This document shows positions 3,001 to 36,402 of a stretch of 64,000 nucleotides of DNA, piece after piece. The notes under the pieces were generated by a model that saw only the letters and a list, made by a program, of their open reading frames with translations, did no database searches and was not told where the DNA came from. Position 1 is the first letter of the stretch. Each line of letters begins with the position of its first letter. The translations under genes and the position numbers were made by a program. Source of the DNA: Xiphophorus maculatus. Its lineage: Eukaryota > Chordata > Actinopteri > Cyprinodontiformes > Poeciliidae. The DNA lies in NCBI RefSeq assembly GCF_002775205.1, contig NC_036457.1, positions 3,767,650-3,831,649 on the forward strand, written 5' to 3'.

Positions 3001-6000
3001 AACAGCAGAAGCGGTGCCCACCATCACTAACTGCCACTAAACGCTGCGGTCTCTTTCGTCTTAAATCATTCTCTTAAAAACATTCGTCTCTTCAGTAAGC
3101 CAACTTTTCAGCTTGAGAAATGAAAACACCTAATCTAATTACCAGCATTCCAAGAATTACACTGATGGTTGGTGAAATGTTCAAATCTATCATTTCTAAT
3201 TGACTTAATATGTGATTGGCAGCAAAAACACAAGCAATTTTTTTTTGTATAATTGGATATTCAGGCAAATATTCAATTGACAAATATTAGTAATGAACTC
3301 AAAAAATTAATCCTTTCTGAAAAAGAGACAAGAAGAAACCAGGTGTTGAAAGAAAACCATCAGAGATCCTGTTTGTCCAAACAGCTGGAAGATGATGGTC
3401 AGAGGAAACTGGAAGTAAATTATTTGGTATTTAAAGGAACAAATGCCAATATTGCAAATCCCTTTAATAAAGAAAATCCAATAAAATAGTTTTAATACAA
3501 CAAAATGTGGCCCTGTATTCAATTTAACGTAACATAGAGTAGAACAGATTCACTAATGGCTTCATACAAGGAAATGCAAGATAATTTGAATTTATGGTAT
3601 AAAACTCAAAGTGTTTAAATGAAATTTCAGATTTGTCTGCTGTTAGGGACTTGGAATGGAAATCTGTTTAAATTTTCAAGACTTTTCCATTCTACAATTT
3701 AAATTATTTGTGGCAATACTTTTTTCTTCACAAAATTCTACGGTTAATATTTCATTTCTAGATTCTGATTTTCACTGTAACCGCCTGGAAAACCTTAACG
3801 CTCCCAATTCCCAACATTCCCAATTAGCAGCTATCTCTGCTGGGAGTCTTCTTTGTTTTGTTTTGGTGTCACTTTGTGACGTTGCACTGCAAAATGTTGC
3901 ACTGTGCACTTAGTTTTACACATAAACATTCTGTCAATCAATCATGATAAAAATAAAAATAATCTGAAAAATACCAATTAAGAAATTATACAAGCATTTG
4001 TTGTATCATTTTCTCAGTAAATCCTATTTATTGAATTAGATTATTATTTAAAAATAAATAATAATCTAAAGTCTAATTTACATCAAAATTAACAGATCAG
4101 TAAAACTATCTGACTTTTATCTGAGAGCCTTGAAGAGCCTGGAAAATAAATCGTTTTTTATTACATTGTTAAAACCACAAACATCAAGTGAATCATTTGG
4201 GAGGAAAACAACAGTCCTATAAAAGTAAATGTTGCTTAAAGTCAGAGATTCACCCTAAGAAATGTCCAAATAAGTAGTGAAATAAACGAGGAGTTTGGGT
4301 TTTCGATAGCTGCCTTTAGGCGTCCAGCGCAGCTGCAGTCCAGGTGAAAGACGGAACGGAGGGATGGAGGAACGGAGAAACGGAGGGATGGAGGAACGGA
4401 GGGATGGAGGAACGGAGGGACAGAGGAACGGAGGAACGGAGAAACAGAGGGATGGAGGAACAGAGGGATGGAGGGACGGAGGAACGGAGAAACGGAGGGA
4501 TGGAGGGATGGAGGAACGGAGGGACGGAGAAACGGAGGGATGGAGGAACAGAGGGATGGAGGGATGGAGGGACGGAGAAACGGAGGGACGGAGGGACGGA
4601 GGGATGGAGGAACGGAGGGACGGAGAAACGGAGGGATGGAGGAACGGAGGGATGGAGGGACGGAGGGATGGAGGAACAGAGAGTGAAACTCAATCTAAGT
4701 TTTCTCCACATCTGGACACGTTGGATTTACAAGGACACACCATGAAGCAGTTTATCTGGCAGCCACCGCCGTAAACATCATCCAAACGTTGACTGTCTAA
4801 TACGGTTTAAATACTCTTACCCTCGGTTTCCATGGTAACACCGATGTTTGGGCAGATTTTTGTACTTGTGTCAGGAGCTGTCAGCACATATTTTCAGGTA
4901 ATAAAAAAAGATGTTATCTATTAAAGCTGGGAGCTGGTGCGTTTGGTCTTAGTAAATCGATGTACTCAGCATGAACCTTCTTCTTTTGGGGCTTTTAAAG
5001 ACTTATTTCTTTTCCAGGAGGGAACAATTTTACAACACTCAACTGCAGCCATTTTAAAATACAGAAAATGGAGGCAAACGTCGGAACGCATTGAAGATTT
5101 CCTCTGATTTATGAAGAGGGGAAAATCTTCATGCAGGCAGTTAAATATTTCAAGTTTTTGTGCCACCAACAGTTAAGTAGAGTAAACACAACATGCAGTT
5201 TCCAAATTATTCTATTTTTTTAAAGGAAAAGTTATCAAAACCAACCACTGTTAACCCAAAAGTCTGCATCACTTAAAAAAATCATGATGATAATCCCCAA
5301 AGGAACATCAGAACTGCTGTCACACGGCAGAGGCAGTATAGTGATCTGGGAATGCTTTTCTGCTTAAAGGAGAATCAGATCCACGTCTGAATGATTCAGA
5401 AAAACAACTAAATAAAGTTCTGCAGTGGCCTAGTCAAAGTATGGACTTAAATCTGAATGAGATGCGAATGGAATAAATTGTTGCTAATCCTAATCCATGA
5501 ATTTTCAAATGTCATCATTCGTTACCTTATTATCACTTGTTGATCTGAAACAGTTAAGTGGGGCAACAGAGGAAAACAGAAAGACATCTGGAAGGACGCA
5601 AATAATTTATTCAAGTCTGAGTGTAAAATGATGTTAAATCCATAACAGATTCAAACGTGTGCAGCCAGCTTTCTATCAAAAGTCCGGAGAAATATGAAGG
5701 TCCGTTATGAACGAATGTAAACGTATGGCTGCAGCTGTGGTCAGACTCCAACAACACCAGCTACAGGTCCGATTCTTTTAAAGCCAGAAGGCTGCAAAGG
5801 TCACATCAGACAGTCCAGTAGATGCCACTCATCTGTGTGAAGGCAGAGGAAATGTTGGCACCGATTTCTGGGCTGTTTGATGTTTTCTGGCAACAATAAC
5901 AGGGAAGAAACATCGAGTATCTGCCACTATGCAGCCGTTACTCATTGAGCTGCAGTTCAGCAGTTCAGCAGTTCAGGTCACCCAGATTTATTCCTCCCTG

Positions 6001-14754: not shown

Positions 14755-15126
14755 GTTGTCCGAAAGGAGGAGTTTGCATAGCCATCAGTTACAGACGAAT
14801 CAAGAGGAATGACTGCAAGTTTGGAGAGAATGAACTTTCCTGGAGACTGAGCTGCCCTGATGGTGGATATTCTATCTGCCACGGGAACAATCAGATATTC
14901 ATCCCGTCCTCATCCTGGTCCCACAGCTGTGTATGTGGACTGTTCGTCTGGCATCCTGTCCTTCTACAGGGTCTCATCCGACACAGAGCTCCATCTCTAC
15001 ACCTTCAACACCACCTTCACTGAACCACTTTATGCTGGCTTTGGGTTCACCTCATATAACTCCTCAGTGTGTCTGAGGAGTCATGTTCTCTATAGTAAAC
15101 ATGACAGTTATTTGACAAAACCTTAA
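14755..15126 (+). pseudogene. B30.2/SPRY domain relic (NLRC3-like or TRIM-like), frameshifted
   Basis: One frame carries GGVCIAISYRRIKRNDCKFG and ENELSWRLSCPDGGYSICH, the SPRY core seen in fish TRIM and NLRC3-like proteins (IAVSYK ... FG-ND-SW-L-C). Near 14920 the homology moves to another frame, which continues TAVYVDCSSGILSFYRVSSD, then LYTFNTTFTEPLYAGFGF, the standard SPRY C-terminus, and stops at 15124-15126. The frame change with no splice signal marks a pseudogene or an assembly error. No PRY, NACHT, RING or LRR sequence was found nearby, so the parent family is not decided. Confidence 0.75.
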
Positions 15127-16345
15127 TCTTTAATAAATAAGTAAAATAAAATTAATTTGTGAATTTCAAGCTCTCACAATTTTTCCCGTCTCAATCTTTA
15201 ATGTGCTTTGAAACTAAATCTGTGTTCGATCAACATTTTTCTGCGTCTTTGACCACATTCAAACTACACGTTTTCTATTACAATATTGCAATCTGTTTTC
15301 AATTTGTATGTATTTTTTCTATTCCTGGATGTTGAAATCCCTTCTAAGCTTGTGATTATTGCTTCTCACAAGATAATCATTATTGATCTGTTTGCATATA
15401 TGCAATGAAAAGAAATCCATTTTATGAGGATTCATTCACTTTGATCAAAAAAATACAAATCTTATTTGATTTGACATTTTTAGTCTACAATAGGGCAACT
15501 GTAGTTTTCATTCAGATAGCAGCAGGTCTGTTTGGTTATTTTTTTTCCCTTAAATGTAATAATTGTTTCAAAACATGTTTTTGTATTTGCTCGTGTTATC
15601 TTTATTTTATATCAAATTGTATTTGTTCTGAAGCACATAAGTGTGTCCAAAAAAACTGAAGATAATTATAAAGTTTAGAAACTGTATGACAAGAAACGGT
15701 GGATGTAAAAAAACTTCTTAAAGTTCATCATATTTTTGTGGAATGTATTACTTATGAATCAGAAAGAAGGCAGTTCCCAAAATAAAGAAAAACAATGAAC
15801 ATTACATTTACAATTGATAAAATTATTGGTATTAATGTCGGTGAAGTATTAGGTCAAATTAAGAGAAGTGTCTATTGGGGTTGCCTTCCCCAGATAAAAG
15901 AATAGAAGCTGACTAATAAACTATTATTTTAAAGTCACAAATGTGTTCTGTGAAGCTGAAATTGTGTTTAAGCTGGTGTACCTCAATGGTATAGAGAAAT
16001 ACTTGAAATTATTCCAAAGTACAGTAGAGTCTCAGTGTAACGAAAACGGAAACGGACAAACCTTTGGCGGCCCCTGATGGACTACTTTCTCAGTGCATTC
16101 AACTGGGTATAAAATCTAACAACTCATTTTCATGTACTTAAGTATTTTATTCATTTTTTTATTTATCGTATTTAGTTCCCTTTCTCCATCCCAATAATAA
16201 TAATAAAGTGAAAGTAAGTGATTTTTGGAAAATACAAACTTAATAGAGAGAATTTAGTTTATTAATGCGAAGTTGAACTAAGTTCTCAGCATTAGGGTTT
16301 TGTTTTTTTGTTTTGTTTTGTTTTATCTAATGTCCATACTCCAGC
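15127..16345. other. Non-coding stretch
   Basis: AT-rich, with no credible exon. The ORF at 15405-15659 has low-complexity hydrophobic composition and no recognisable domain. Confidence 0.6.
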
Positions 16346-16359
16346 CCAGTAGGTGGCGG
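16346..16359 (+). promoter_or_regulatory. CTCF-type core motif upstream of THAP-E2F6
   Basis: CCAGTAGGTGGCGG matches CCASYAGRKGGCRS at every position. It is part of the longer string AGTAGGTGGCGGTAATGCAC, which recurs in many vertebrate genomes, so it may be repeat-borne. It lies about 245 bases upstream of the chosen start codon of the THAP-E2F6 gene. Confidence 0.45.
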
Positions 16360-16414
16360 TAATGCACCATATCACAGTTGCCCAGCCAACCGCCATAAAA
16401 AAAAGAGAACTTGT

Positions 16415-16422
16415 ACTTCCGG
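16415..16422 (-). promoter_or_regulatory. ETS/GABP-type promoter motif
   Basis: ACTTCCGG (complement CCGGAAGT) lies 170 bases before the start codon in a locally GC-rich region with GGCGCGCG and CTTCCCGC, the latter one mismatch from an E2F site. This is typical of TATA-less housekeeping promoters. Confidence 0.4.
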
Positions 16423-16590
16423 ATCAGAGACCTGATAGTTTCCTGAGGCGCGCGACGTAAACAGACTGCATGCGGCGGGAATGTGGATGTGTTTTTCCTG
16501 AAGTTTTTGTCCCGGTTTTCCAGCCGGAACATGATCCCTGCCGCCGCTTCCCGCTGGGTTCGGAAGGAAAACAAGCCGGTGTTCAGCGGC

Positions 16591-19500
16591 ATGTGGAAGT
16601 GCGTCGTGTCCGGGTGTCCGAGCCGCATGGGGAGCGTGAACCGGGGCGCCTTGAAGCGAGGACCGAAACGGTTCTTCAGGTTCCCCACATCTCCGGACCG
16701 AGTAAAGGTACGGCGGAGGCTTCGGGAAGTAGTCCAAGCCCTGAAGTAGCTGTTGTTTTCCCTGTTTGGTCCAGTATATTTCCTGGTCTTTAAAAAGTCT
16801 AATGGCACAATAGAAAGTGAGGGAAAATGTGCATTTCCGAGATTTATTCCCAATCCCAATGTCTGAAAGTGTTTCCTTCTTTCTGCAACTTCTGCACTTC
16901 TTCATCCTAACATGTTTCCTTCTGTTCTTCCTTCATTTTGACCTTAATTGTGTTAATATCTTCTATTGCTGCGTCCTTCCATCTGTCCTGATTCTCTTCT
17001 TTTTCCTATTCTTTCTTTTTTGTGTTCTTCTTCTATCCTATCTTTTTATGTTTCTTTGTGTTTACTTCCATGGATTCTGCATTTCTCTCCTTCATCTAAT
17101 TATTTTTGCATCCTTTCCTCCTTTTCATTTCCTATTTCCTTACATCTTCCTTCCTTTCATTCTACCCCTTCCTTCCTTCATTCCTTCCTTCCTTATGTCC
17201 TTCTCTCCTCCCATCTTTCCATGCATCCTGTCTTATTTCCTTCTTTGGATCCTTCCTTCCATGTTTTTTTTTCATCCTTCACTTTGTCCTTGTTTCTTTC
17301 CTTACACTCTTCCTTGTTCCCTTCCTTCCTTTTTGTTCTTTCTTCTTTTCCTTTCATTTTCCCTTATTTTCTTTTTTCCTACCATTATTCCATATTTCCT
17401 CTCTTGTTTCCTTCTCTTACTGTGTGACCTTCCTTGTCTCTCCATCCTTTCTTGTTTCCTCGCCACCCTCCCTTTTTGTCTTTTTTTAAATCCGTTCTTC
17501 TTTCCTTGCCTCCTTCCTCTCCTTATGCATGTTTTTCTTTCATCTTTCTTTGTATTTTATCATATTTCCTTGTCTTTTCATTTGTCCTTCATTCATTCTT
17601 CTAATTTGTTTTGTGTCCTCTCATCCCTCCTTGTCTCCTCTCCTCCCTCCATGCCTCCTCGTCTCCTAGGTATGGCTGGCGGCGTTGAGGGAAACCGATA
17701 AGGATCCGTCTGAGCAGCATTTCATCTGTGAGGATCACTTCCTGCCGGAGGATATTTCAGGAAACGACGTTCGGAGCGACGCCATTCCCATCATGCCTCC
17801 TTATCTGGACGGGCCACAGTTCCCGACCGGCGCCGATCCGTTACTGGAAGAGGAGCAGTGGGCGACCGGCGGCTGGGGTGATGAAGAGGAGGAAGATGAA
17901 GATGAGGCACCAGAGCAGGTCTGGAGTCAGTTTCTACCTCTTTCATCGAATCTTTAATGCGAGATAAAAATAATAAAATCTGGTTTCTGATCTCCAGAAT
18001 CCAAACAGACGTGCTCAGAACCCATCAGAACCTGATGTGAAGAGGTACCACAGTCTCAGAAACCGGGTCAAATTCACCAAATTACAGGGAAATCTAAATA
18101 ATATTTGTTTCCTTTTCTTCAGTGAATTTTGTCCTCAGGATAAAACGACCGACTGGTTCATCAGAGAAGGTGAGTCACGACAAATTAGTTTCTATTAATT
18201 ATGAAATAAATGTTTATTTTCCAATAATTATGAGATAAATGTTTTTCTAACTAATAACTATGGGATAAATATCTTTATTCATTTTGATGGCTGGAAAATT
18301 TGCAAACCAAATCCTGGATTCTTTTCCTCCGTTATTGATTTCCTCTTCTTTCTTTTTTTTTGCTGTTTTTCAAACTATTTAATGTTTCTAGAAAGTCACA
18401 ATATATCAGCATTATCATCTGCTTCCTTCCTTTCACCCTTACTTCTTTCCTTCCTTTCATCCTTCCTTCTTCCCTTCTTTTCACCCTTACTTCTTTCCTT
18501 CCTTTCATCCTTCCTTCTTCCCTTCTTTTCACCCTTACTTCTTTCCTTCCTTTCATCTTTCCTTCTTTGGTTTCTTTCACCTTTTCCTTCATCCATCCTT
18601 CATTGCTTCCTCTACTCATCCTTCCTTTCTTTCATCTTTCATTACTTTCCATCCTTTCACATTTCTTTGCTTCTTTTTCATTATTTCATCCATCTTTTTA
18701 TCGTTCCTTCCATCTGTTAATCCATTCTTCCTTCACTGCTCTCTTCCATCCATCCTTCATTTCTCCTTGTTTCAGCTCATGAACCTGTTTTCAGGTGATG
18801 CCTGATACATCAGCGTTAACATCGGTACCGGTCCGATAAATGAAACCAGGCCGACATTTTAAACTGTGTCCAAAGTTTTGGTAATATTGGTGAATATTGG
18901 AAATCAACCATTCAGTATAAATATTGAACGTTGCCCCAAGATTTCATATCGATGCATCGCTAATGTTTTAATATCAGGCCAAGATAAATAAGTAAAGTAA
19001 TATTTTTTGTTTGAATCATGCTATTGATTAAGTGTTAAACCAGCCTGGCTCTGTTGGCACGGTAACATCACAGCGGTTCTGTCTCCAGGTACTCCTCTGA
19101 CCCGGCTCACGCGGGGTTTCCTCCAGCTGCTCATGGCCGACCCAGACGCCTTGCTGGACGTCAGAGAGGCGGCGGAGAAGCTCCAGACCCACACACACCG
19201 AGTCCAGAGCGTCGTGGACGTCCTGCAGGGTGTCGGACTCGTCCAGAGCGACTCGGATGAGCGGGTCCGGTGGATGTAAGCGGCTGGAATCGGTTCTGTT
19301 CAGAGTCTCTGTAAAAGATTCAGGAATGAGATCAGCAGAGAAACCGTTCAGGTCACAGAGGAAGGAAAACATTCCTGATTAAAACCAGTTCAGCCAGTAC
19401 CACAGACTGGAAATGGTCCTTCTGGTTCTGTCTGTCCATCCTTCTATGTCTCTGTCATTCTGTCTTTCCATCCATCCTTCTTTGTCTTTTCATCTTTAAT

Positions 19501-22211
19501 TTAATTCTTTCATTTTTCCTTCTTTGTTTCCATCTATCTATTCATCCATCTTTCCTTCCTTCTTTGTCTCTTATCTGCCCTTTCATCCTTCCTTACATCC
19601 ATCCTTGCTTCCTTTAATCCTCCCTTCCTGATGTCAGTAGAAACATCTGCAGTAAATTCACAGCAAATTTTAATTTAAATATTAAATCAGACATTTTTTT
19701 AAACATGTTTTCTCCAAACTCCTTGTTGTGTTTCCGTGTTTAAACTGAAATCTGGAATCCTTGAACCAGAATCTCTCCCTCTCCTTCCCTCTCTCTCGTT
19801 CTCTCTCTTTCTCTGTTCAGAGGAAGTAGCCCCATCTTCAGCTTCCTGTGGAGAGACACTTTGACCTTCCTGACGATGCTGCAGGGGCTGAAGGTCATGG
19901 AGGAGGAAGTGGACCGTCTCTTTAAATCCTGCGCTCAGCAGCTCTTCGACCTCACTGAGGATGAGGAGAACTCTTCATATCCTTCTGAGTCTGACTGAGG
20001 AGCTTCTGCGTCTAAATATCTTACAGATATGAAGCTGGTTTGGTGTTTATGTTGCGATAATGAAGCAGCAGTTTGATCTTTCCAATCCACGACATAAACT
20101 TTAATTGAAAAATATTTATTTTAGATGTAAAAACAAGACAATAAAAATAATGCTGTTTTTTTTAGTCTTGTTGTTTATGTAGCAATGTATCTGGGAAGAT
20201 GACATATGCTAAGTTGCTTTTGCACTAGCTAGCTCCGTCCAACCAGAACAGTATGCGCAACAATAAAGTTCAGCCATTTCATTCTGAGTTGGAGCGCGTT
20301 GAAATAAAACACAGTGAGGAGGGGAGATGAAGATGAGACACGCTGGTGTTTGTGCTTCCAGCAGTACGCTGCGAAGATCTCCAGTTTCTAACTCAAACTG
20401 TTTACATTTAGCATCATTTTCACAGATTTATTAGTGATGTCTCACAAAACTTAAAGATGCTTAATTTTTTATTTCAACAGCTATGCATTTCTATCCAGTT
20501 TGTTTTGAGTTTGCATTAGCTCCTGCTAATGCTGTTAGCCGTAGCTAACCTAGTAAACAGTAGATGATGCTTGTTTCAACCAATGGCTCACGCATAGCGA
20601 CATTAAAACGTAGGTGAAAAATGGAATGAAGATGAACAATTTCTAAAGTAACTATAAGTTTTTACTTTCCCTAACCAAAAACCTTTAGGTTAAAATGACA
20701 ATTCCAACATATTTAGACCAACTGGTTTAATTAGTTGTGGTTCTTTTGAGAAGCGTTTTGATCTTTAACTTTTCTTCACGCTGGCCTACGTCCGCTGCGA
20801 TGACATCTGTCGCCTTGGAGACCTGCAGCATCAGACGGTGATCGTCATCAAATCTCCCCCAGAAACGAAGCTGATCATTCCTCCTCCTGACGAGGTGAGC
20901 AGATCCCAGGGGAGAGCAGCCGATCCCAGAGAGATGGATTCATTCTCCCTGGTTTTATCTGAAATGATGAAACTAGATTAAAGCTGATTGTTTTTCTGGT
21001 TCCGGCGCTTCAGGACGGGATTCGGATGCAGCTGAAGTCGGAGAACGGTCCCATCATGGCACTGACCTGTGACGTGGGAACTTTGACCTCTGAACTCACA
21101 AACAACAGCGTGGCATTCTCGGCGCTGGAGAGTCGCGTCAGGGCGTGTACGATTGATGAAGGTACCTGGAATAGAGTAATCAGAAATACTTCTAAAACTT
21201 TGGGTGGATTTTAAATATTACTTTACGATCATCTCATCTGTGTCACTTTAGTTTATTCTTCATTTGAAGGATAAACTCGTCATCTCTGCTAAATTATTTT
21301 CCGAAATACTCTTATTTCTCCACATACAGATGTATCTAAATAAAGTGGAATATCATTGAAAAGTATATTTATTTCAGTAATTTAATAAAACATTTTAAGT
21401 TTATTGACTCTAGGCACTAAAATGGTCATTAAGTCACATATTGGTACTTTTTACTGGAAAATTACCTTAAAAATTGCACGTTTTCCTACACATTGTTTCT
21501 TTCCATGAAATTTTCCATCAATATTTTTGGATTGAGCTTGTGCCGCAGGCAGTCAAAAGCAACTCAGATGATTTTCCCTTGGTATTCAGGTAAGGTGATT
21601 CTGATGTTGTCCTGGTTCAGCAGTGGATTGGGACATTTGTGCTCAGAGACATCGGCATGTTTTCATTTTTGAAGCTCCGATTCCATCTTTAGTTTTCGCT
21701 TTTTGAATCTCGCCTAAAGACTCGAATGGCTTTACTTCGCAATTCTCCCAAATCTGTGGTTATTCCTGCTGTGCAGTTTTTCCTTCCACTTAACTTTCCA
21801 TTCGTATTTCTGGGTCAGCATGCAGGTAAGCAGGGTTCCTCATGATGTAGCCCCTAATTTTGCCAAAACTTAACATTCTGGTTTTAAAAACTCTTTTCTT
21901 ATTGGAATCATTTAATGATTTTGTAAGCAAAAAAAATCCACAAAACGAACAAAGAAATGCTTAAAATATGTTTTATAATAAAATGAATGAAATAAATGAA
22001 CTTTTCAATGTTACATTAATTTAATGAGATGTTTTTATTACACTGATAAATACTCGACTACTGACCGAAGCCATTTGCTTTAAATTGGTTGATTTCTCTA
22101 TTATTTTTCTGTCTGACTTTCTTTAAATCCTGAAGTTCAAAAGGAAAACTGATTAAATGTTTGACTTTTATTCACCTGCCACTAGTGGTGAACAAGAAGA
22201 TGAAGATCTAG
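16591..22211 (+). CDS. e2f6: THAP-domain E2F6-type transcription factor
   Basis: Nine exons in continuous phase: 16591-16707, 17670-17918, 17998-18044, 18123-18169, 19089-19275, 19821-19976, 20780-20894, 21014-21161, 22186-22211 (363 aa). Residues 1-80 form a THAP zinc finger: MWKCVVSGC gives Cys4 and Cys9; exon 2 gives the invariant Trp41 and FICEDHF with Cys59 and His62 (C-x4-C-x49-C-x2-H). The ATG before WKC is preferred because THAP domains start there. An acidic linker follows (DEEEEDEDEAPEQ). Residues 154-215 match an E2F winged helix (LTRLTRGFLQLL, LLDVREAAEKL, VLQGVGLV), but the DNA-reading R-R-x-Y-D motif is replaced by H-R-V-Q-S. Residues 216-350 are the coiled coil and marked box (LAYVRCDDICRLGD, TVIVIKSPPETKL). 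A THAP-E2F6 fusion has been reported in zebrafish. The 26-nt last exon is the least certain; read-through of the eighth exon into its intron would stop at 21214. Confidence 0.9.
16990..17665. repeat. Polypyrimidine (CCTT/TTCC)n tract in THAP-E2F6 intron 1
   Basis: Long imperfect C/T-only sequence dominated by CCTT and TTCC, filling most of the first intron up to the acceptor CTCCTAG at 17669. It generates several long leucine/serine/phenylalanine-rich shadow ORFs that are not genes. Confidence 0.85.
18436..18570. repeat. 48-bp pyrimidine-rich tandem repeat
   Basis: Two full identical 48-bp units (18436-18483 and 18484-18531, each starting CCCTTACTTCTTTCC) and most of a third, embedded in a wider CTTT/ATCC-rich stretch to about 18770. 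Similar sequence recurs at 19430-19640. All lies in THAP-E2F6 introns. Confidence 0.9.
19977..20779 (+). other. U12-type AT-AC intron in THAP-E2F6
   Basis: The exon ends AACTCTTC and the intron begins ATATCCTT, the U12 5' splice consensus. It ends TCTTTAACTTTTCTTCAC: TCTTTAAC is a good U12 branch site about 10 bases before the terminal AC. Joining these sites restores the E2F reading N-S-S-L-A-Y-V with no frame loss, whereas no GT-AG choice does. E2F-family genes are known for conserved minor-spliceosome introns. Confidence 0.9.
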
Positions 22212-22432
22212 GAAGAGGATGAAGATTTTCTCAGCAGGTAAAGGGAGAAATTATCGTTTTATGGAGAGATTTGTATTTATAAGCAGAAATATCGGTTTAT
22301 TTCATCTGTTTATTCTTTTTTTGTAGGATGAAAACCCAACGATGCGTCAAACTGAAGGAACTCTGAGGTGGAAGAGGAAAACCTCTGAATGTTCAGTGTT
22401 GGGTTCAGAACTGACTGGAAATTTGAACCTGG

Positions 22433-22438
22433 ATTAAA
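22433..22438 (+). promoter_or_regulatory. Candidate THAP-E2F6 poly(A) signal
   Basis: ATTAAA, a common variant signal, about 220 bases after the predicted stop and followed by a T-rich stretch. Confidence 0.4.
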
Positions 22439-22486
22439 GTTTCTTTCTGTTTGAACGTTGATGGGGGGAAAATAACCAGTACCACA

Positions 22487-22500
22487 GCGCCCCCTGTTGG
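22487..22500 (-). promoter_or_regulatory. CTCF-like motif (one mismatch)
   Basis: The complement reads CCAACAGGGGGCGC, differing from CCASYAGRKGGCRS only at position 4. It lies just past the end of THAP-E2F6 and points toward the motif at 16346. Confidence 0.3.
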
Positions 22501-24089
22501 CTGAACCAAAAGCTGCTGCCTTTCTTTTTGGATCATCTCAGCCACCTCATCTTCTCAGTTCAACAATTTAAACTTTGATAATTTTTTTGTTAAACTGGGA
22601 GGTAAACGGAGACCAGAACAAGCTGCTGGTTTAACTGGTGGATGGACTGAAGATCTCAAACCAACTTTTTTTTCTTTCTTCGAACTTTAACCTCTTTGCT
22701 GTTTTTATCCAAAGTAGAGAAGCAGGAGAGATGAACAGCTGGTCAGAAACTCAAAAATCCAATACTTTTCTGTACTGTGAATGCAGCACTTGAAGCATTA
22801 ATGGGAAGCGCTCTTTAGTGTCTTCAAGCCGTTTAAATTGAAACTAAGACGTAATTCAGGCTGCAGGGCGGCGAGAGAGAGCAAGACTTTCATCAGATAA
22901 CTGGAAGGATGGACATATTGCAAAAGACTTGCTCTTTTTTATTATTTTGAACTTTCTGTTGTTGTACATGCTTGATTTGAAAATATTAGGGGTCTTAGTC
23001 GTCACACACATTTAGTCTGTGTAATACTAACCACACTTATGAGTGGTTAGTTTTAGCATTAAGATGCTAAAATCTATTTAAAATGTGAAAATCCTTAATC
23101 CTTCAGTCAAAAACCCTATTTTACATTAAGTGCTTTCTCACACAGTGTGACGTCTCACCTACTCTAAATGCAACTTAATAATAACGGCGGAAAGGCTGGA
23201 ATAAATATTTTCTTTACTAACCTGGAGACATCTCTGTTTGGTTTTATTTTTCATTTTCATGAAGGAGGAACAGAAATGAGTTTTGATAGAAACGTGTTAA
23301 ATGTTAAAATGTTCCTTTGTTTGTGTTGCTGCTGTTTCTCTTTCATCTGTTTGAGTTGAAAGAGAAGAAACCAGATATCCAGATGGGATCAGCAGAAGCG
23401 AAAATGCTCCAACGCAACACTGAACTTAAAAGTTAAACTATTTTTTACTTCTTAGTTTCTTTATATATTCTGAGATTCGCAAAATATATTGAAACCAATA
23501 AAAGATTCGACTTCAGAGTTAAGAAATAATCCCTCATTTTCTGTCTTTAACCAAACTGGTTTGTACAAATTACTTGAACTAAACCCTAATTATTTTGAAA
23601 AAGAAATCATTCTGAGTGAATTACCTCCACAGCATGCAAAGAGCAGCTATACATTCCTATTAATAATCTAATTATTTCATTTGATATGTGCTGAAGCAGA
23701 GACAAAGGGATTTTTTTATACTGTTTGCATGTTTGTTGGCTTTTATTTTTTTACTTGCACGATAGAAGCGTATGGTAAAAGAAAGGACTGAATTCCTGTA
23801 TCATTGCCTCAATCACACCATAACGATGCTGAGCAGCCAATCAGAGGCAGATAAATCTAATATCACAGTTTAATGCATATTTGTTTTCACATAAACTTCA
23901 AAATAATTATTTTAAGAACACATCAAGTGACCAAAACTGTCTGTGGCATTAATTTCTTAAACCAAATCCAAACTATTTTGCTTTTAATAATGATGATAAC
24001 TAAGTCAAGTCCATTTTCTGATGGACTTGAAAGAACTTTCATAAAGGAAACAACCATTAAAGCTCAGTTTGATTCTCTGATGGACTCTG
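22501..24089. other. Non-coding spacer
   Basis: No gene seen. From about 23820 the sequence is homologous to the region upstream of Ig gene copy C (36790-37070), for example CAGCCAATCAGA(G/T)GCAGAT, so it is the left flank of the duplicated Ig unit. Confidence 0.6.
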
Positions 24090-24732: not shown

Positions 24733-27700
24733 ATGTTGGTTCTGGTTCTGGTTCTGGTCGTTGTGCTTCAGTTTGAAGGTAAAGATCTGTTTTCTTTGGT
24801 TTACTGTTGCATTTTATGAAAATATGAGAATTAATATTTAGAAGTTATAATTGCCTATTAGTTAATCAAGTTTTTACTAAGCATATAAAACGATGTGGAA
24901 AAAAATTGGATTTAACATTTTTCTTTTGTCAACTCAAACTTGTAATCTGACAGATTAAAACGTTAATTTATGCTGCTATAAAAATATCTTAGATTTTTAA
25001 GGGATTGAAAATAAAAAAGATTGTTATAGCAGTTGCCCTGCGACAGACTGGCGACCTGTCCAGGTGACCCCGCCTCTCGCCCGAAACGATCGCTGGAGAT
25101 GCAGCAGGACCTCCTGACGCCGACAGGGACCCGGGTGTTAGAAAATGGATGGATGTTATAGCAATAAATCTAACATTGTGCAACAAAGATTTTAAAGAAG
25201 TACAAACCTTCACAGTTTTTGTGAAGGATGAATTGTGTCAAACTTTAATGTCTTTGTTTCTGCTGCAGGAACCAGAGGAGGAGAAATTCATCTCTATCAC
25301 AGAGAAGGAGAAAATGTTGTTCTACCTTGTAACATTCCCGCATCGTCTTACCAATGCTCCAATGTTAACTGGTTTTACAACAAGGGTAAAAATACAAATA
25401 CTCAGCAGAAGGTTTTCAAAGGAAGAGTTATTCAGAGTTTACCTCCGTATGACAAGTTTAATGTGAGCAGCAGCTGCTCTCTGACCATCAACACCATCAC
25501 TGCTGATGATGCTGGAAGATACACCTATAGACCTGGTTCAGGAACCTCCTCAGATCATTTTGTCTATCTGAATGTTTTAACCAGTGAGTATGTAGACCTG
25601 AATGATTTAACTCTCAGACTCTTTGCTTCTGATCAACTTGGTGAAATGTTGGTCAGATGTTTCTGACATCATCAGTTCTGATTTCCTTTTTCTCTGAAAC
25701 CTTGAACTTCTTTGGACTTTAACATGAGGGAACGTCTCAGTGACCTGATGCAGTCAGAAGTTCACATGTTGTTCTGTCAGAGAAACAATCATTTATTTAG
25801 ATTCAAATAAACATTACCCATCAGTCCACACACCTGGTTTAACTTTGCAGTCAATATATTACATCGAAGACATTAGTTTATTTGTTAAACATTGGTTTAC
25901 CTACCAATGATTGACGTAAACTCAAAATGCAGTTTAAATGTCTGCCCTGTACCTCTGTTGGGTTTCTGCTACTTCCTGTTCCAGCTTCCATCAGGAAGTC
26001 GGCTCATCAGAGTGAACGTTGTGCTCGGCTGCTGAGGATGTTTAGATTAATCAGTTTATCTCTTATGGTGGATCAATGTTTGATCAAACTACTGAATCAT
26101 TTACTTTAAAGATGTCTTGTTTTTTTCCGTCATGCTGATGAAAACCTGCTGAGATTCATCAAATAACATGAAGACCAAATCTAAAAAAGTTATCAAAATG
26201 TTACATTGTTATTAGTTTATATTCTACTGTCTGAAGCCTGAGACACTTAACCCTTTAAGGTTTTCACTTTAGAAAAAGTTACTTTAACATCTTCTAGACT
26301 TAGACAACAGTTTTTATTTTTCTTTCAGTTTCAAACGAATTTTCAACAAAGGATGATTTTGCATTAGAGTGTTCCCTGGAGAGATACAGTGGGTTGGATG
26401 TTTGTCCAGAGAACAGTTTCCGCTGGTTGGATGAACAGGAACTGAACTGACTGAAGGTGTTTGTTTCGACTTAAGAGGACCGAGACTCTGTGTTTCCTCT
26501 CTAACTGTGAAGAATGAGAGCGACACCAGCAGAAACTACACCTGCCAGTTTGTTGAAGGAAACAGAGTGAAGGCTGAAGATCACTACACAAGTGAGGTTA
26601 AAGGTGTGACACTTTTTATTTACTGAGGAAATTAGATAAACAGCAGGTATTAGGAATCAATAGTCTGTTTAAAAGTCTAAACCAGTTTTCCACCTGAAAC
26701 AAAACTGTTTAATTAATTACTTTTTTTATGCCTGATAAATAAGAATGAAAGTTTAAATCACTGAAACAACCTTTATGAAAGAAAGAGGACAAACTTATCA
26801 CTACAAAATTAAAGCTAGTGTTTTACATACAGTGGTACTAAGTGAGATTTATGTTCATAACATGAACATATGTGAAAGCAAAGACTGATAACTGAAGATA
26901 TTTCAGATTTGGGTCTTTTCCTTTACTTACTTTTGACTCAATCAGCATAAATATTAGAATTTATACAATTTTGTTGTGTTGTAATTATTTTTCAAGCTTT
27001 TTCCCCCCTTTTTTAATTCCTTTGTCATCTTTTACAAACCTGACAAAAATATGGCTACGTGTGTAATAGTTTTATATATTTTTGTTTGTGCAGTTTGAAG
27101 AGAAAAATCTCTGGTTTCAGTTGTTGAATGCTGATAAATTCCTTTATGAAAATATTGTAAAATATATCCTTTTTTTGCATTCAGAGAAACCGATAATAGG
27201 TAGTACAACACACAGACATTATTATTATTATTATATAATTAATAGCTAAATGTAGAGCAAAATATTTCTCTCTTTCTCAGGAGTTGTCACAACAGAACAA
27301 GTCCATCTCTACCACAAAGCTGGAGATGAAGCTGTTCTGCCCTGTAACAGACCTTCATCATCATCATGTTCCTCTGTTAACTGGCTTTATAAGAGAAATG
27401 AAGACATGAAATATCAACAGGAAGTTCAGAGAGGAATCGTTCAGAGTTCACCTCGTTCTGCCAGGCTGAGTTTGGACAGAATCTGTTCTCTGATCATCAA
27501 CAACATCACAGCTGAGGATGCTGGACGTTACCGCTGCAGATATAATGCATATGTTTATCTAAACATGCTGATCAGTAAGTAATCTAAATAATGACTCTAC
27601 CTGCTGATTTCAGTCTTTTTAAGATCTGACTGTTTAGATCATGATGTGTTTTTAGTTCAGTCAGGACTGGAACTGGATCCGTCTGATTTTAGAGACTGAA

Positions 27701-29132
27701 ATCTGTTCAGTTCTCTCATTATGATGATATTTATGTTGTAGTGGTGAAACTAATTTAATGATATTTCCAATGGCTAATCTTTGTATTTTATCGCAAAATG
27801 TTTTGTCTGCAATGTTTCCATAGAAAAGCTGCTGATCATTACCATAAAAATAAAAGATTTTCTCTATGAAAAGTCTTAATAATGAAATGTGATTTTCTTA
27901 TTTTCTTTCAGTCTCCTCATCTCCTACTGTTGATCCAACAAAGAATGAAGACGTAACATTATTCTGTTCTCTGTTGAGATACAGATCATCAGGTTCTTGT
28001 CCAGATAAAAGTCTCCTCTGGTTGAACGAAACAGGAAGTGAGCTGACTGAAGGTGATGGATATAAATCTGGAGGACAGACTGGTTGTGTTTCTCTTCTGA
28101 CTGTGAATCTTCAGAGCAGCAGAAGATTCACCTGCCAGTTTGTTGAAGGAAACGAAGTGAAGATAGAAGCTCAGTATGGATCTGAAGGTATGAAGTCTTA
28201 TTCTTATAAATAAGTTAAAATTTTGCACTGAAACACATCAGCTTCTGTGTAAATATCTCATTGATTTATTGTGAATCTTATGATTAAACAATATATTTCT
28301 AATTTATTGTCAATAATTTGGACACTTTGACTTTTCACACCACAGTTTCTATGTAGATCTCCAGTTTTCTTCTCCATCATGGTGGTTCAGGTTCTCCTTG
28401 GTTCTACATGTGGATCCAAAGTCACAAACACTCAGATTGATGTTCAGTCCACCATCATGTTCAAACTATTTTCTTCCTAAATCAGATGAAAATGATCCCA
28501 TCAGGTTGTTGCTCCGTCTCCTCCTCAGGCCCCCCCGCCTCGTCTCCTCTGAGCTTCATCATGTTGACTCTGAAGATCACAGGACTGATCCTGATGGTTG
28601 GAATCACTGTTGGTATCATCAGAACCAGAGGTGAGGAAACTCAGCTACAATGGAGACGATTTACACAGTTCTTACTTTAATCACTTTATTCTGTTTTTCA
28701 CTGCAGGGAGAAAAAAGCCTCAGAAAGACATTAATGTAAGAGAAACAATCATGAAAAATACATTCATAGACCTTTTATATGTAGATTATAAATGACAATC
28801 TTGTTTCTTTAGACTTGAAATTTCCATCTTGTAACATCAATTGCCCAATATTGCTTTATTCTTCTTCTTTTTAAAACCTTTACCTGAAAACATCTCAGAA
28901 GAAAAACATGATTTGACTTTTAAATCATGTAAAACTGTTATTTTTGCCTGTATTTTCTCATTACTATCCTTTGTGATGCTTTTGAAGTTTCTCTCTAAAT
29001 GTCCCTTTTGTGTCTGTAACTGTTTTATCCAGTCAATATCTGCTTGTATCTCAGGTTCGTTTTGCTGTTGATGACGACACAGTGACCTTTGAAAATGATG
29101 GAGAACGTTCTGCTGCCGCCGCGCTCCACTGA
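24733..29132 (+). CDS. Ig-superfamily receptor, copy A (damaged; possible pseudogene)
   Basis: Exons: 24733-24778 (signal peptide MLVLVLVLVVVLQFEG), 25269-25583 (V1), 26329-26603 (C1), 27281-27574 (V2), 27912-28187 (C2), 28529-28630 (transmembrane), 28707-28735 and 29055-29132 (tail, stop 29130). Two defects are visible. In V1 the second canonical cysteine (YxC) is tyrosine: RYTYRP against YTCRP in copies B and C (codon 25526-25528). In C1 one base is missing against copy B (GATGAACAGG for GATGATACAGG), giving a stop at 26448-26450. Because C1 is a phase 1-1 exon, skipping it would restore a 379-aa V1-V2-C2 receptor. The last Ig domain, transmembrane segment (FIMLTLKITGLILMVGITVG) and tail are intact. 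Family name not recognised; it belongs to the large unnamed fish V-set receptor group. Confidence 0.7.
25020..25155. repeat. LINE-type (L2/Maui-like) 3' tail
   Basis: CCTGCGACAGACTGGCGACC, TGACCCCGCCTCTCGCCC and the end AAAATGGATGGATG match the very common 3' tail of fish L2-clade elements. It sits in intron 1 of copy A only; copies B and C lack it at the same place. Confidence 0.65.
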
Positions 29133-29352
29133 GCTTCATCACATCCATGAAGATTCATTAAAAAAGCTTCATTTTAACTGTAAACCAGTCCAAAAGGATA
29201 TTTTGCATTGAGTTAACTGCATATGTAATTTTAATTGTGTTAAATTCAGTGTTGATTAAAAACACCGTAGATAAGATAAAAGCTGATTGTTTAGTCTAGA
29301 ATAGTTTGGGATAAGATGCTTTAAATGTGTTGTTTGCTTCCTGTTTGGTGTA

Positions 29353-29358
29353 AATAAA
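29353..29358 (+). promoter_or_regulatory. Poly(A) signal, Ig copy A
   Basis: AATAAA about 220 bases after the stop codon, at the same relative position in copies B (35582) and C (41783). Confidence 0.6.
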
Positions 29359-29399
29359 AGATTTGTCACATATTTTGTCGTATTTCAAAGAACTCGTGT

Positions 29400-30060
29400 T
29401 TTATAAAAGGAAATCATGTAGAGCAGGAGGGATTTGCTGATCACTCATTGGTTAATGTCCAGAACGTGGGAGGAGAGAGGAGAAAGGACAAGAAGTAAAA
29501 TATGGGGCTTTGTTGAAGTTTTAAAAAGTCCCGTTTTGTTTTTCCTTATCAAACATGTTTTGGACCAGTCAGCTCCTGATGTTCAGTCGGTTTCATCCTT
29601 ATCTGGCGCTGTGCTGGTTTTGGCCTGGAGGTTATCCTTCTGAAAGCTTTGCTCTCATTGCTTACGTTGTTCTGTGTCTTATTTTGGACAGAGGAGCTAA
29701 GACAGAATCCATCTTGTTTGAAGAGACTGGAGGAAAAACTGACCATTTTTTCTCACTTTTACTCCAATTTGCAATATTTGCTCTCATTTCAACTGCTTAC
29801 TTTTTGTGTTCACTCTGTTATTGTTCTTTCCATAGAAGCTACACCTGGTCTGGTTTAGCTGTGATACCTTCCTGCAGGAGGGCATCCACCAGGATGATGC
29901 TGCCATCAACTAATTGTTCTCCTTCTCCTGCTGTTAACATTCCTGGAATCCACAGCTGTAAAATATGGCAGTGAAGATCAACTTCAAGGTTCTTTCATGT
30001 ACACAAGTGATGCTTGTCCAGAGAACAGTTTCCACTGGTTGGAAAACTGTGTGTGCGTAC
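29400..30060 (+). pseudogene. Spacer relic of an older Ig gene (unit A)
   Basis: At 30008-30045 GATGCTTGTCCAGAGAACAG then TTTCCACTGGTTGG matches the C1 exon of the receptors (GATGTTTGTCCAGAGAACAG at 26395), so a piece of a degenerate Ig C-type exon lies downstream of each gene. The preceding 29555-29974 is an open 139-codon frame kept in unit B with one replacement. It has hydrophobic stretches (FALIAYVVLCLIL) but no recognised domain and no splice support. Confidence 0.45.
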
Positions 30061-30908
30061 ACATTCATTGTATGAAATAATTTGGGTTATAATTAATTAT
30101 ATTTGTGTACAATTAATATAACCTAAAGATTATATTGTATATTTACACACATTTAAAGACTCTAATCTTTAAAACTGTTGATGGACTCTGGTCCAGACAG
30201 CTGGCATTTCTTCTTCTACTGGTCTGACTGGTTGTAGCATCAGGTCACATTTAATGTCAACAGAAGAGGAGGCTTATAGATGGCCAACTGGGCAGCAGAG
30301 CATTCTGGGATTTGTAGTATAAGCAGTGAATGGAAAAGTAAATATTCACCACTAATAATAGAGTAAGAGTATAAAATACTTTTATTCTAAAGTATTTATA
30401 TTTTCTGCTGTAAGGATCCAGTTGGACCTGTTTGGATTCTGTTCTGACTCGGTTTATTTGCTCTGTCTCAGAGCTGCTGGTGTTAGTGGACTGACTGCAG
30501 CCCATTAATATGCATCACAGTTTATCTCTGACTGCTCAGGCAGGAAATTAGAACAAGTTGCACAAAAAATATACTGTTAAACAGCAGGAAATAAGATTTT
30601 GTTTTTATTTTCTCCACCAGCAAATCCTTCAGCTAAAACATTTAGTTCATTTGAGTGTTACAGAGTGACAGAATTAAATGTAGTTTAAATGTTCATTTCT
30701 AACTAAAGTTTTGCTGGTTGCTTGTTTTGATGGTTTTCTGTCAGTTTCTGGAAATGATCAAATTGATAAGAGGAAAATGACAGAATAGGTAGGGACGTGA
30801 ATTTGATTTCAATCATTATTTCAGCCACAAACAGGAAACATCATCAGTATTTTCAGATCAGCAGCAGAGAAAAGTCTCTCAGTTCAGCGGCTGATAGACG
30901 GACAGGAG

Positions 30909-33900
30909 ATGTTGGTTCTGGTTCTGGTTCTGATCGTTGTGCTTCAGTTTGAAGGTAAAGATCTGTTTTCTTTCACATCAAGATGAGAAAAATTAAAGGA
31001 CATTTTGGTTTATTTCTGTATTTTACAACAAGTTGTGTATTAGTTAATCAGTTTTGTACCAAATATATAGAAACATTTTCAAGGATTAAAATGCTAATTA
31101 CTATTGTTGTAAACATGTCTAGAATAGCTCCTTAAAAGGTAGACAATAGAATGTTTTAACAACAAATCAAACATCATATAACATAAATAACTACACAATT
31201 TTAATTTCACCTTCATGATTGTATTTGTGAATGAAGAGGTGTTTAGAACTTTAATGTGTCTGTTTCTGCTGCAGGAACCAGAGAAGAAGAACTGCATCTG
31301 TATCACAGTTACAGGCATAATGTTGTTCTACCTTGTAACAGTCCTTCATCGCTTTCCTCATGCTCTGATGTTACCTGGTTTTATAACAAAGATAAAAATA
31401 CTCAGCAAACGGTTTGGAACGGAGCAGATTATCAGATTTCACATGGAGCTCACAAGTTTAATTTGAGCAGCAGCTGCTCTCTGATCATCAACTACATTGA
31501 TAATGATGATGCTGGACTCTACACCTGTAGACCTGGTTCTAATGCCTCCTCAGATGGTTTTGTCTATCTGAATGTTTTAACCAGTGAGTATGTAGACCTG
31601 AATGATTGAACTTGTTAACACCTCTGCTGTGTTTCTGCTCCTTCCTGTTTGAGCTGGGGGCGGGGCCAAGCTGTGATGTCATCAGGAAGTCGGCTCATCA
31701 GAGTGAACGTTGTGCTCGGCTGCTGAGGATGTTTAGATTTAATCAGTTTATCTCTTATGGTGACTCAATGTTTGCTTAAACTACTGAATCATTTACCGTA
31801 CTTTAAAGATATTTTGTTTTTTCCATCATGCTGATAAAAACCTGCTGAGATCTATAATATTAGTTCAGATCAATCATCAAGAGACATGAAGACAAAATCA
31901 AAAATTTTATCAAAATGATCTTGTTACTATTTATTTATTTTATATTGTACTGTCTGCAACATGAGACTCTTAACCTTTTGTTAAGATTCTCACTTAGAGA
32001 AAGTTACTTTAACATCTTTCAGACTGAGACAGCAGTTTTTATTTTTCTTTCAGTTTATGAACAACATGTCTCTTCAGTAAAGGATGAGTTCACAGTAAAG
32101 TGTTCCCTGGAGAGATACAGTGGGTTGGATGTTTGTCCAGAGAACAGTTTCCGCTGGTTGGATGATACAGGAACTGAACTGACTGAAGGTGTTAGTTTCG
32201 ACGTAAGAGGACCGAGACTCTGTGTTTCCTCTCTAACTGTGAAGGATGAGAGCGACAGAGGCTACACCTGCCAGTTTGTTGAAGGAAACAGTATGAAAAT
32301 TGAAGTAAACTACGCACCACTTACCTTTAAAGGTATGATGACTTTTATTAAATGAGAAAAACAACAGGAAATACAAGGATTTTGTGAATGTTTTTTTTTT
32401 AATATTCATCAGTTCACTTTATTTCGGTAAATTATCAACATTAAACAGAAAACAAAAACGTAACAATAAACAATCCCATAATTTACCAAAAAAGGAATAG
32501 GCTGAAGCCAAAAACTTGTTCACATACTTGCCAGCCTACCGTCATAAAAGATATCTTCTGTAAATATAGATATACATACAAAACTACATACAAACACACA
32601 TGTATATACATGTAAACACATACGTTTTATACAAACATGATTACACAATGCATATATACATCTACGAAACTGTATAAGATATCATTTTACATTTTAAGGC
32701 TCTTTTAAAGCTTTAAATATTTTTGCAATAAAATCTAAAGTTTTCTATGGAAGAGGATTAAGGCCACTGAAAAAAAAATAATTCTGACTTTTTTCTCAGA
32801 ATTTAGGGATTAAAGTCAGAATTATTTTTTGTTTTTTTTCCAGTGGCCCTAATGCTCTTCTGTAGTTTTCCGCCTGAAACAAGCCAGACAAATAAGATTC
32901 AGACCATTTTTATTATCTGCTGTAGTTTAAATCATTTAAACAACCTTTATGAAAGAAAGAGGACAAACTTATCACTACAGAATTAAAGCCAGTGTTTTAC
33001 ATGAAGTGGTTCTATGAGGGATTTATGTTCATAATAACATGAATAAGGGTGAAAGCAAAAAGTGATAACTGAAGATATTTCATATTGAGATTTTTTTTTC
33101 TTTTCTTACTTTTAACAATAAATAATAAAGTCAGAATTTATGCAAATTTGCTTATACAATTTATGGGGGTTTTTGTCGTCTTTTTTGGACCTGCGGTAAA
33201 AAATAGTTTTATGACTAGGAGTAAAACGGTACACCAAATAGCCTAACTGTAAATAAATACATTTTTATTTCTATATTTTGAAGAGAAAAATCTGTGGTTG
33301 CAATTGTTCACCACAGATATTTTCCTTTGTTAAAATATTATTTTATAAAATGCATTTTGTTTTTTTACTTTAAACAGATTCTCTTTTGGAAGTGAATACA
33401 GGCAGAAAAGCACAGAGATAATTATTATTTTAAAGTACGATAAAATGTTTCTGAATGTGTTTTTTTAGCAGAAAACAGAGAAAGAATCCAGATCTACCAC
33501 AGAGCAGGAGATGAAGCTGTTCTGCCCTGTAACAGATCTTCATCATTCAACTCATGCTCCTCTGTTGACTGGCTTTATGAGAGAAATGAAGACATGAACA
33601 AGGAACAGGAAGTTCAGAGAGGAATCGTTCAGAGTTCATCTCGTTCTGCCAGGCTGAGTTTGGACAGAAACTGTTCTCTGATCATCAACAACATCAATGC
33701 TGAGGATGCTGGACTTTACACCTGTCAGCCTGAAGATGGAAGCAGTTATGAAACAGATGTGTATCTAAACATGCTGATCAGTAAGTAATCTAAATAATGA
33801 CTCTACCTGCTGATTTCAGTCTTTTTAAGATCTGACTGTTTAGATCATGATGTGTTTTTAGTTCAGTCAGGACTGGAACTGGATCCGTCTGATTTTAGAG

Positions 33901-35361
33901 ACTGAAATCTGTTCAGTTCTCTCATTATGATGATATTTATGTTGTAGTGGTGCAGATTATTTAGTTATACTACCAAAGGCCGACCTTCATAGTTATTGCC
34001 AGATGTTAGTCTTCAATGTTTTTACAGAACAGCAACTATTAAAGACAATAGAAATAAAAGTTGTACTTTTGTTTCTCTATATAGAAAATATTTAGTTCTG
34101 ATAGGTTGTCTTATTTTCTTTCAGTCTCTTCATATCTACCAGCTATTAATCCAACAAAGAATGAAGTGATCACATTATTCTGTTATATGGTGAGATCCGG
34201 GTGGTTCAGTTCTTGTCCAGATAAAAGTCTCCTCTGGGTGAACGAAACAGGAAGTGAACTGACTAGTGAAGGTGATGGATATAAATCTGGAGGACAGATT
34301 GGTTGTGTTTCTCTTCTGACTGTGAATCTTCAGAGCAGCAGAAGATTCACCTGCCAGTTTGTTGAAGGAAACGAAGTGAAGATAGAAGCTCACTATGGAT
34401 CTGAAGGTATGAAGTCTTATTCTTATGAATAAGTTAAAATTTTGCAATGGAAAACATTCATTGCAACATTTTCCAATAAATTTATTGATTTATTTCATCT
34501 TATTATTAAACAATATATTTCTAATTTATTGTCATTATTTTGGACACTTTGACTTTTCACACCACAGTTTCTATGTAGATCTCCAGTTTTCTTCTCCATC
34601 ATGGTGGTTCAGGTTCTCCTTGGTTCTACATGTGGATCCAAAGTCACAGACACTCAGATTGATGTTCAGTTCAAACTATTTTCTTCCTAAATCAGATGAA
34701 AATGATCCCATCAGGTTGTTGCTCCGTCTCCTCCTCAGGCCCCCCCGCCTCGTCTCCTCTGAGCTTCATCATGTTGACTCTGAAGATCACAGGACTGATC
34801 CTGATGGTTGGAATCACTGTTGGTATCATCAGAACCAGAGGTGAGGAAACTCAGCTACAATGGAGACGATTTACACAGTTCTTACTTTAATCACTTTATT
34901 CTGTTTTTCACTGCAGGGAGAAAAAAGCCTCAGAAAGACATTAATGTAAGAGAAACAATCATGAAAAATACATTCATAGACCTTTTATACATAGATGGAA
35001 AAAGACAATCTTGTTTCTTTAGACTTAAAATTTCCATCTTGTAACATCAATTGCCCAATATTGCTTTATTCTTCTTCTTTTTAAAACCTTTACCTGAAAA
35101 CATCCCAGAAGAAAAACATGATTTGACTTTTAAATCATGTAAAACTGTTATTTTTGCCTGAGTGCTGAATGTGTTAAATTATTTTCTCTGTACTATCCTT
35201 TGTGATGCTTTTGAAGTTTCTCTCTAAATGTCCCTTTTGTGTCTGTAACTGTTTTATCCAGTTAATTTCTGCTTGTATCTCAGGTTCGTTTTGCTGTTGA
35301 TGACGACACAGTGACCTTTGAAAATGATGGAGAACGTTCTGCTGCCGCCGCGCTCCACTGA
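30909..35361 (+). CDS. Ig-superfamily receptor, copy B (intact, V-C-V-C)
   Basis: Exons: 30909-30954 (signal), 31275-31583 (V1), 32054-32332 (C1), 33469-33780 (V2; a NAGNAG acceptor allows 33472), 34125-34406 (C2), 34739-34840 (transmembrane), 34917-34945 and 35284-35361 (tail). All joins are in phase and give 478 aa. V1 shows VVLPC, VTWFYN and DDAGLYTCRP; V2 shows AVLPC, VDWLYE and DAGLYTCQP; C1 and C2 share a form with CP(E/D), L-W, L-V and YTCQFVEGN or FTCQFVEGN. The membrane segment FIMLTLKITGLILMVGITVG contains a lysine, and the tail (GRKKPQKDIN, VRFAVDDDTVTFENDG) has no ITIM or ITAM. This suggests a cell-surface immune-type receptor using an adaptor for signalling; ligand unknown. No assigned family name. 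Confidence 0.85.
32385..32660. repeat. Dispersed teleost repeat insertion
   Basis: Present in intron 3 of copy B and absent from copies A and C. It begins with a T run and contains AAAAAAGGAATAGGCTGAAG and CACATACTTGCCAGCCTACC, resembling a common fish retroposon end, followed by a TACATACA-rich tail. Confidence 0.5.
32745..32872. mobile_element. Palindromic MITE-like hairpin
   Basis: AAGAGGATTAAGGCCACTG at the left and CAGTGGCCCTAATGCTCTT at the right are inverted repeats, and the interior (AATAATTCTGACTTTTT ... AAAGTCAGAATTATTTTTT) is also complementary, so nearly the whole 128 bases can fold on itself. It has no coding sequence. It lies in copy B intron 3 only. Confidence 0.75.
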
Positions 35362-35581
35362 GCTTCATCACAGCCATGAAGATTCATTAAAAAAGCTTTA
35401 TTTTAACTGTAATTCAATCCAAAAGGATATTTTGCATTGAGTTAACTGCATATGTAATTTTAATTGTGTTAAATTCAGTGTTAATTAAAAACACCGTAGA
35501 TAAGATAAAAGCTGATTGTTTAGTCTAGAATAGTTTGGGATAAGATGCTTTAAATGTGTTGTTTGCTTCCTGTTTGGTGTA

Positions 35582-35587
35582 AATAAA
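35582..35587 (+). promoter_or_regulatory. Poly(A) signal, Ig copy B
   Basis: AATAAA in the conserved 3' UTR about 220 bases after the stop. Confidence 0.6.
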
Positions 35588-35629
35588 TATTTGTCACATA
35601 TTTTGTCGTATTTCAAAGAACTCGTGTTT

Positions 35630-36290: not shown

Positions 36291-36402
36291 ATTCATTGTA
36301 TGAAATAATTTGGGTTATAATTAATTATATTTGTGTACAATTAATATAACCTAAAGATTGTATATTTACACACATTTGAAGACTCTAATCTTTAAAACTG
36401 TT

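Follow-up and report, generated by a model that had tools for sequence, protein, structure and literature searches.

An intact THAP–E2F6 fusion gene of Xiphophorus maculatus with an altered E2F recognition motif

Zebrafish E2F6 is reported to carry a THAP domain (work by Clouaire et al. in 2005), so that the THAP–E2F6 fusion as such is already known in zebrafish. Mammalian E2F6 helps to bring PRC1.6 to germline genes via E2F sites, and the human protein, with 281 aa, is shorter than that of the large yellow croaker. An indirect trace of the knowledge of fish THAP–E2F6 can be found in a paper on aphids, where a statement that THAP proteins have a part in the cell cycle of "different fish species" is referenced to an E2F6 paper (a passage of PMC4246565). 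Among the literature matches listed, from a coverage that mostly excludes subscription papers, no title dealt with THAP–E2F6 or with motif loss in fish E2F6.

In mouse cells, the silencing of Tuba3a by E2F6 requires DNA binding as well as the marked box, to which the choice of E2F6 targets is also ascribed (passages of PMC8195999). In human cells, MGA has been modelled as the tether of E2F6 in PRC1.6. Occupancy of the tested PRC1.6 promoters, whether E2F6-dependent or L3MBTL2-dependent, was not restored by an E2F6 unable to bind DNA (L68E,V69F), which the authors read as a loss of PRC1.6 association (passages of PMC5806899). Given this need for DNA binding in mouse and human, a natural E2F6 without E2F reading would be expected to have another address or to work otherwise. 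A candidate for such a protein is encoded in a stretch of 64,000 nucleotides of Xiphophorus maculatus (NC_036457.1, positions 3,767,650 to 3,831,649), hereafter the window, whose own numbering is used throughout.

The gene model and its surroundings

The gene is intact and occupies positions 16531–22211 on the + strand; its nine coding exons join into a single open frame of 1152 bases, ending with a stop codon at 22209–22211. The predicted protein has 383 aa if translation begins at the ATG at 16531, and 363 aa from the in-frame ATG downstream at 16591 (MWKC...), where a previous sequence-only reading of this DNA had placed the start. Seven of the eight introns are of the GT-AG class and one, the sixth, is AT-AC. 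The features of the model and of its upstream flank are as follows.

16474..16481, - strand: E2F-type site TTCCCGCC (GGCGGGAA on the + strand), 49 bases upstream of the first ATG
16531..16707, + strand: exon 1, start (ATG 16531 or 16591) with the N-terminal portion of the THAP domain (C24, C29 and P52)
17670..17918, + strand: exon 2, remainder of the THAP domain (W61, C79, H82, F83, AIPIM box) and acidic linker
17998..18044, + strand: exon 3, linker; GT-AG sites, frame maintained
18123..18169, + strand: exon 4, linker reaching the winged helix
19089..19275, + strand: exon 5 (187 bases), with the E2F winged helix (E2F_TDP, aa 175–237, 56.8 bits)
19821..19976, + strand: exon 6, coiled coil, preceded by the last part of the winged helix
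19977..20779, + strand: sixth intron, AT-AC, with donor ATATCCTT, branch-like TCTTTAAC and 3' end TTCTTCAC
20780..20894, + strand: exon 7, marked box, part 1
21014..21161, + strand: exon 8, marked box, part 2, then a short tail
22186..22211, + strand: exon 9, final eight residues and stop, placed by splice sites and frame alone

Exon 9 is the least certain of the nine. The GC content is 54–66% in six of the exons, 38–47% in exons 3, 4 and 9, and 33–47% in the introns; exon 5 reaches 66%, with 82% at third positions. The reading as a pseudogene was rejected, since the nine exons contain neither a stop nor a frame break. Short introns, the neighbouring immunoglobulin gene cluster and the THAP–E2F6 fusion known from fish all agree with a teleost source.

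The stretch between exons 6 and 7 is best explained as a U12-type AT-AC intron, which accounts for the marked-box join of these two exons. In it, TCTTTAAC lies close upstream of the 3' end TTCTTCAC, in the pattern of this class, and the assignment is drawn from the place of the intron and not from the rarity of its donor word, ATATCCTT being found four times in the window against 4.36 expected. In place of this intron 48 GT-AG pairs were tried, five of which keep the frame, and each of these costs more than 30 residues of the coiled coil and marked box, including LAYVRCDDICRLGD completely or almost so. The AT-AC join retains this sequence, and the more than 30 residues that it saves match E2F1, E2F4 and E2F5. 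Minor introns have been reported in 75% of E2F genes (a passage of PMC6865273).

Upstream of the gene, the E2F-type site is the sole match to TTSSCGCS in the window, where 1.50 are expected, and is thus no more than chance would give. It is surrounded by a short CpG-rich stretch (observed/expected CpG of 0.94 and 1.04 in two 400-base steps, 16201–16800), and its position could allow auto- or cross-regulation by E2Fs. The window holds 149 open reading frames of at least 75 aa, and 20 of those above 40% GC, lying outside the gene, were scanned against Pfam; five matched (four immunoglobulin and one SPRY under its cut-off) and 15 were blank. The immunoglobulin matches are V-set exons of a tandem receptor cluster, at 27256–27579, 33444–33785, 38127–38528 and 39917–40243; the segments 27291–30179 and 33474–36402 are 93% alike and mark a duplication of ~6.2 kb. 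A stretch of 467 bases that looks like a recent mobile element is present in three copies (29616–30082, 35844–36310 and 38863–39329), of which the third is inverted and the first two are each 99% like the third. The SPRY-like match is an exon at 14851–15123, left of the gene, and scores 22.2 bits against the Pfam cut-off of 26.3. Minisatellites are found at 46117–46433 (19-base unit, 16.7 copies, 98% matches) and at 4358–4681 (16-base unit, 20.8 copies, 80% matches), and scans of the window with Rfam (gathering scores) and for tRNAs returned no matches.

Domain content and the altered winged helix

The spliced protein was searched against Pfam with E up to 1 and the gathering score as cut-off, and five families were reported. 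THAP (aa 24–99, 44.7 bits against 23.9), E2F_TDP (56.8 bits against 25.7, profile positions 3–65 of 65) and E2F_CC-MB (aa 256–345, 96.1 bits against 33.9) pass, the last being the strongest of the three domains, and MarR_2 and HVO_A0114 each stay under their own cut-off. The sequence-only reading had described a THAP and E2F6-type fusion in one gene with a well-preserved marked box, and the open frame and the three scores bear this out. It had also found all THAP zinc ligands in place, and the C2CH set is indeed complete (C24, C29, C79, H82); P52, W61, F83 and P99, which we take to be THAP consensus positions, are likewise present and the AIPIM box is retained, which suggests a DNA-binding finger in use. 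The named matches among the nine listed for the N-terminus are the solved THAP1/THAP2 chains 2ko0, 2jtg and 2d8r, zinc fingers with which the THAP consensus is shared at weak similarity (E 3e-05 to 1.3e-04). In a search of solved structures with the protein (E up to 5; 25 sequences listed), four E2F chains rank on top. Three of them, from E2F1, E2F4 and E2F5, match in the coiled coil and marked box and one, from E2F4, in the winged helix; the remaining 21 matches, mostly haemagglutinins with E no lower than 1, seem to be due to chance. The prokaryotic library NCBIfam yielded no match, and no relative of the 175-aa E2F part of the protein was confirmed in viral contigs (5 pattern matches) or prokaryotic contigs (69), as expected of a vertebrate gene.

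Aligned with MAFFT, the CC-MB region shares 35/85 positions with E2F1, 32/88 with E2F4 and 26/88 with E2F5, E2F1 being the nearest of the three. The pattern D[LI]F[DE], presumably that of the pocket-protein-binding motif, does not occur in the six frames of 16000–23500, and 38 residues follow the Pfam CC-MB match. The identities fit the E2F1/2/3/6 subgroup and, taken with the absence of this motif from the frames searched, the E2F6 type. E2F6 has been described as arising together with E2F1–3 and losing the RB-binding domain (a passage of PMC3224931), and a contrary grouping is given by a full-length tree of croaker proteins, which places E2F6 beside E2F4 and E2F5 (a passage of PMC12154468).

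The scaffold of the winged helix, which reads ...AAEKLQTHTHRVQSVVDVLQGVGLVQSDSDERVRW, is kept, with LTRLTRGFLQLL, AAEKL and VLQGVGLV present in the spliced protein as the sequence-only reading had it, and its central assertion, the replacement of R-R-x-Y-D by H-R-V-Q-S, likewise holds. The motif and its solved counterparts are as follows.

19196..19210, + strand: HRVQS instead of R-R-x-Y-D, aa 210–214
E2F4, solved: RRIYD
E2F8 first winged helix, solved: RRIYD
E2F8 second winged helix, solved: RRLYD (weak, i-Evalue 4.6)
DP-2, solved: RRVYD (E 0.016)

Three of the four fixed positions are changed, H standing for the first R, Q for Y and S for D, and the second R is retained, while all four solved E2F/DP winged helices aligned, the distant ones included, carry RRxYD; these four, which stand for three distinct sequences (E2F4, E2F8 and DP-2), were collected by a structure search with E2F4 as the query, two of them through weak alignments. 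The wing, VQSDSDERVRW, has lost three Lys relative to E2F4 (two to Asp, one to Ser) and gained two Arg, and the winged helix of E2F4 is one residue longer in the turn. With His counted as neutral, the net charge goes from +3 in E2F4 to 0 here in the recognition helix, from +2 to -1 in the wing and from +5 to -1 in both together, and over the stretches compared it is +4 in E2F4 against -2 here. Judged from the sequence, the motif change is wider than the earlier reading saw, the charge of the wing being lost too. The recognition helices of E2F4/DP2 and of E2F8 sit in the major groove and touch bases, guanine is the contact of the first Arg in the DP-type motif, and E2F4 and E2F8 also use a minor-groove Arg (passages of PMC4686757). 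By eye, the Arg ahead of the winged helix (REGTPL) aligns with this reported minor-groove residue. It is quite probable that the E2F half is without the normal reading of E2F sites; the retained second Arg and the two Arg gained in the wing may permit residual binding.

A sequencing error could have produced HRVQS only through several base changes. The sequence-only reading had pointed to an exon restoring R-R-x-Y-D as the observation that would undo its claim; no uninterrupted RRxYD is present in the six frames of the whole 64 kb window (such a search does not reveal a motif divided between two exons), and none is hidden in the other frames of exon 5. An alternative exon was rejected on these grounds, together with the finding that exon 5 is not skippable in frame, its length of 187 bases meaning that skipping would break the frame. 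When the E2F4 winged helix was searched against the six-frame translation of the window, in pieces of 15 aa or longer, exon 5 was the sole significant match, the next having an E of 2.3, and no second E2F6 copy was found. The AlphaFold model of exon 5 alone, made without relatives, is too poor to interpret (pLDDT 69.5, pTM 0.36, two helices only). The HRVQS change, known here from a single sequence, could belong to one species, to one paralogue or to all teleosts.

A possible exchange of DNA address

On its own, the E2F half would no longer recognise the E2F half-site. Pairing through the coiled coil and marked box would be maintained, probably with DP, as would the contact with E2F6-type co-repressors, and DP with its own RRVYD could read one half-site. 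The choice of sequence would then be made mainly by the THAP finger, possibly with the DP half-site, and the repressor would have exchanged its DNA address. Taken as a whole, the picture of an intact E2F6-type repressor with an N-terminal THAP finger and an exchanged DNA address seems to us evenly poised. That E2F6 in a fish lineage has handed recognition to the fused THAP domain, so that the repressor, and PRC1.6 perhaps with it, goes to THAP sites and the winged helix is left as a mere pairing surface beside DP, is a more tentative account, which we consider possible but doubtful. Of the move of targeting to the THAP domain proposed by the sequence-only reading, the loss of the motif and of the basic wing and the completeness of THAP and marked box stand, whereas the shift itself, with the E2F6 partners kept, is only plausible.

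THAP1 contacts DNA through R29, R42 and F45. These residues are mostly not kept here and so offer no guide to the specificity of this THAP finger. The absence of the DNA-binding-dead human E2F6 from the tested promoters counts against the proposal, since a loss of E2F reading might take the protein off PRC1.6. With regard to pairing, croaker E2F6 has been reported neither to bind DP1 in yeast two-hybrid nor to move it to the nucleus, and croaker E2F1, 2, 3 and 5 were likewise negative on both counts (passages of PMC12154468), so that the DP1 assay may be weak; the description of E2F domains as conserved across species in that study may also count against the proposal.

The retained coiled coil and marked box, next to a recognition motif that is gone, would also suit a decoy or scaffold, which pairs with DP or E2F6 partners without specific DNA reading by the E2F half, weakens other E2Fs by sequestering DP or co-repressors, and uses the THAP domain for stability or protein contacts. 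In C. elegans, LIN-15B without its THAP domain keeps 6774 of 8861 peaks, a finding that may also count against a THAP address, and LIN-36 without its own is undetectable (passages of PMC8552245). We nevertheless find this explanation unlikely: the complete C2CH THAP domain with its AIPIM box suggests a working DNA-binding finger, and the failure of croaker E2F6 to bind DP1 in yeast two-hybrid speaks against a role in holding DP.

The losses scattered across helix and wing could, on the other hand, reflect a fast-changing second E2F6 copy, with the E2F half under relaxed constraint here while RRxYD and the classical role rest with another fish E2F6. Tetraodon nigroviridis is listed with two E2F6 genes and zebrafish with one (a passage of PMC3224931), which makes a second copy a rival to be taken seriously, but the frame, splice sites, THAP domain and marked box are all intact and no other E2F6 lies within the window, and this account too strikes us as improbable. 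It is also conceivable, if hardly to be expected, that E2F reading is altered rather than lost, the His and the remaining Arg touching a changed half-site while DP reads the other; the second Arg, the fold scaffold and the REGTPL Arg, at the place where, aligned by eye, E2F4 and E2F8 use a minor-groove Arg, would all suit this, but the motif has also lost its Tyr and Asp, the wing its lysines, and the domain is net negative.

Comparison with known E2F6 proteins

If its E2F half is indeed DNA-blind, this E2F6, with another DNA-binding domain in the same protein, would offer a natural experiment that asks whether targeting needs more than the marked box and its partners. It would also bear on how a transposase-type domain may give a conserved repressor a new address, and, were the change teleost-wide, results on E2F6 from zebrafish or medaka could not simply be transferred to mammals.

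Like the E2F6 of vertebrates in general, the protein described here has one E2F winged helix followed by a coiled coil and marked box and a short tail without a pocket-binding motif; unlike it, it carries an N-terminal THAP domain, has HRVQS for RRxYD and has lost the lysines of the wing. With the THAP–E2F6 reported from zebrafish it shares the N-terminal THAP domain on an E2F6 protein. The E2F6 of the large yellow croaker (PcE2F6), with 396 aa, is close in length to the 383 aa predicted here and has no pocket-binding domain either; eight exons are reported for it against nine coding exons in our model, and its DNA-binding domain is called conserved, as are E2F domains across species (passages of PMC12154468). 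This protein, known from a cloned cDNA, is long enough to include a THAP domain, which is absent from the main text of that paper (passages of PMC12154468). The minor-class intron, finally, is a feature that the present gene has in common with many E2F genes (a passage of PMC6865273).
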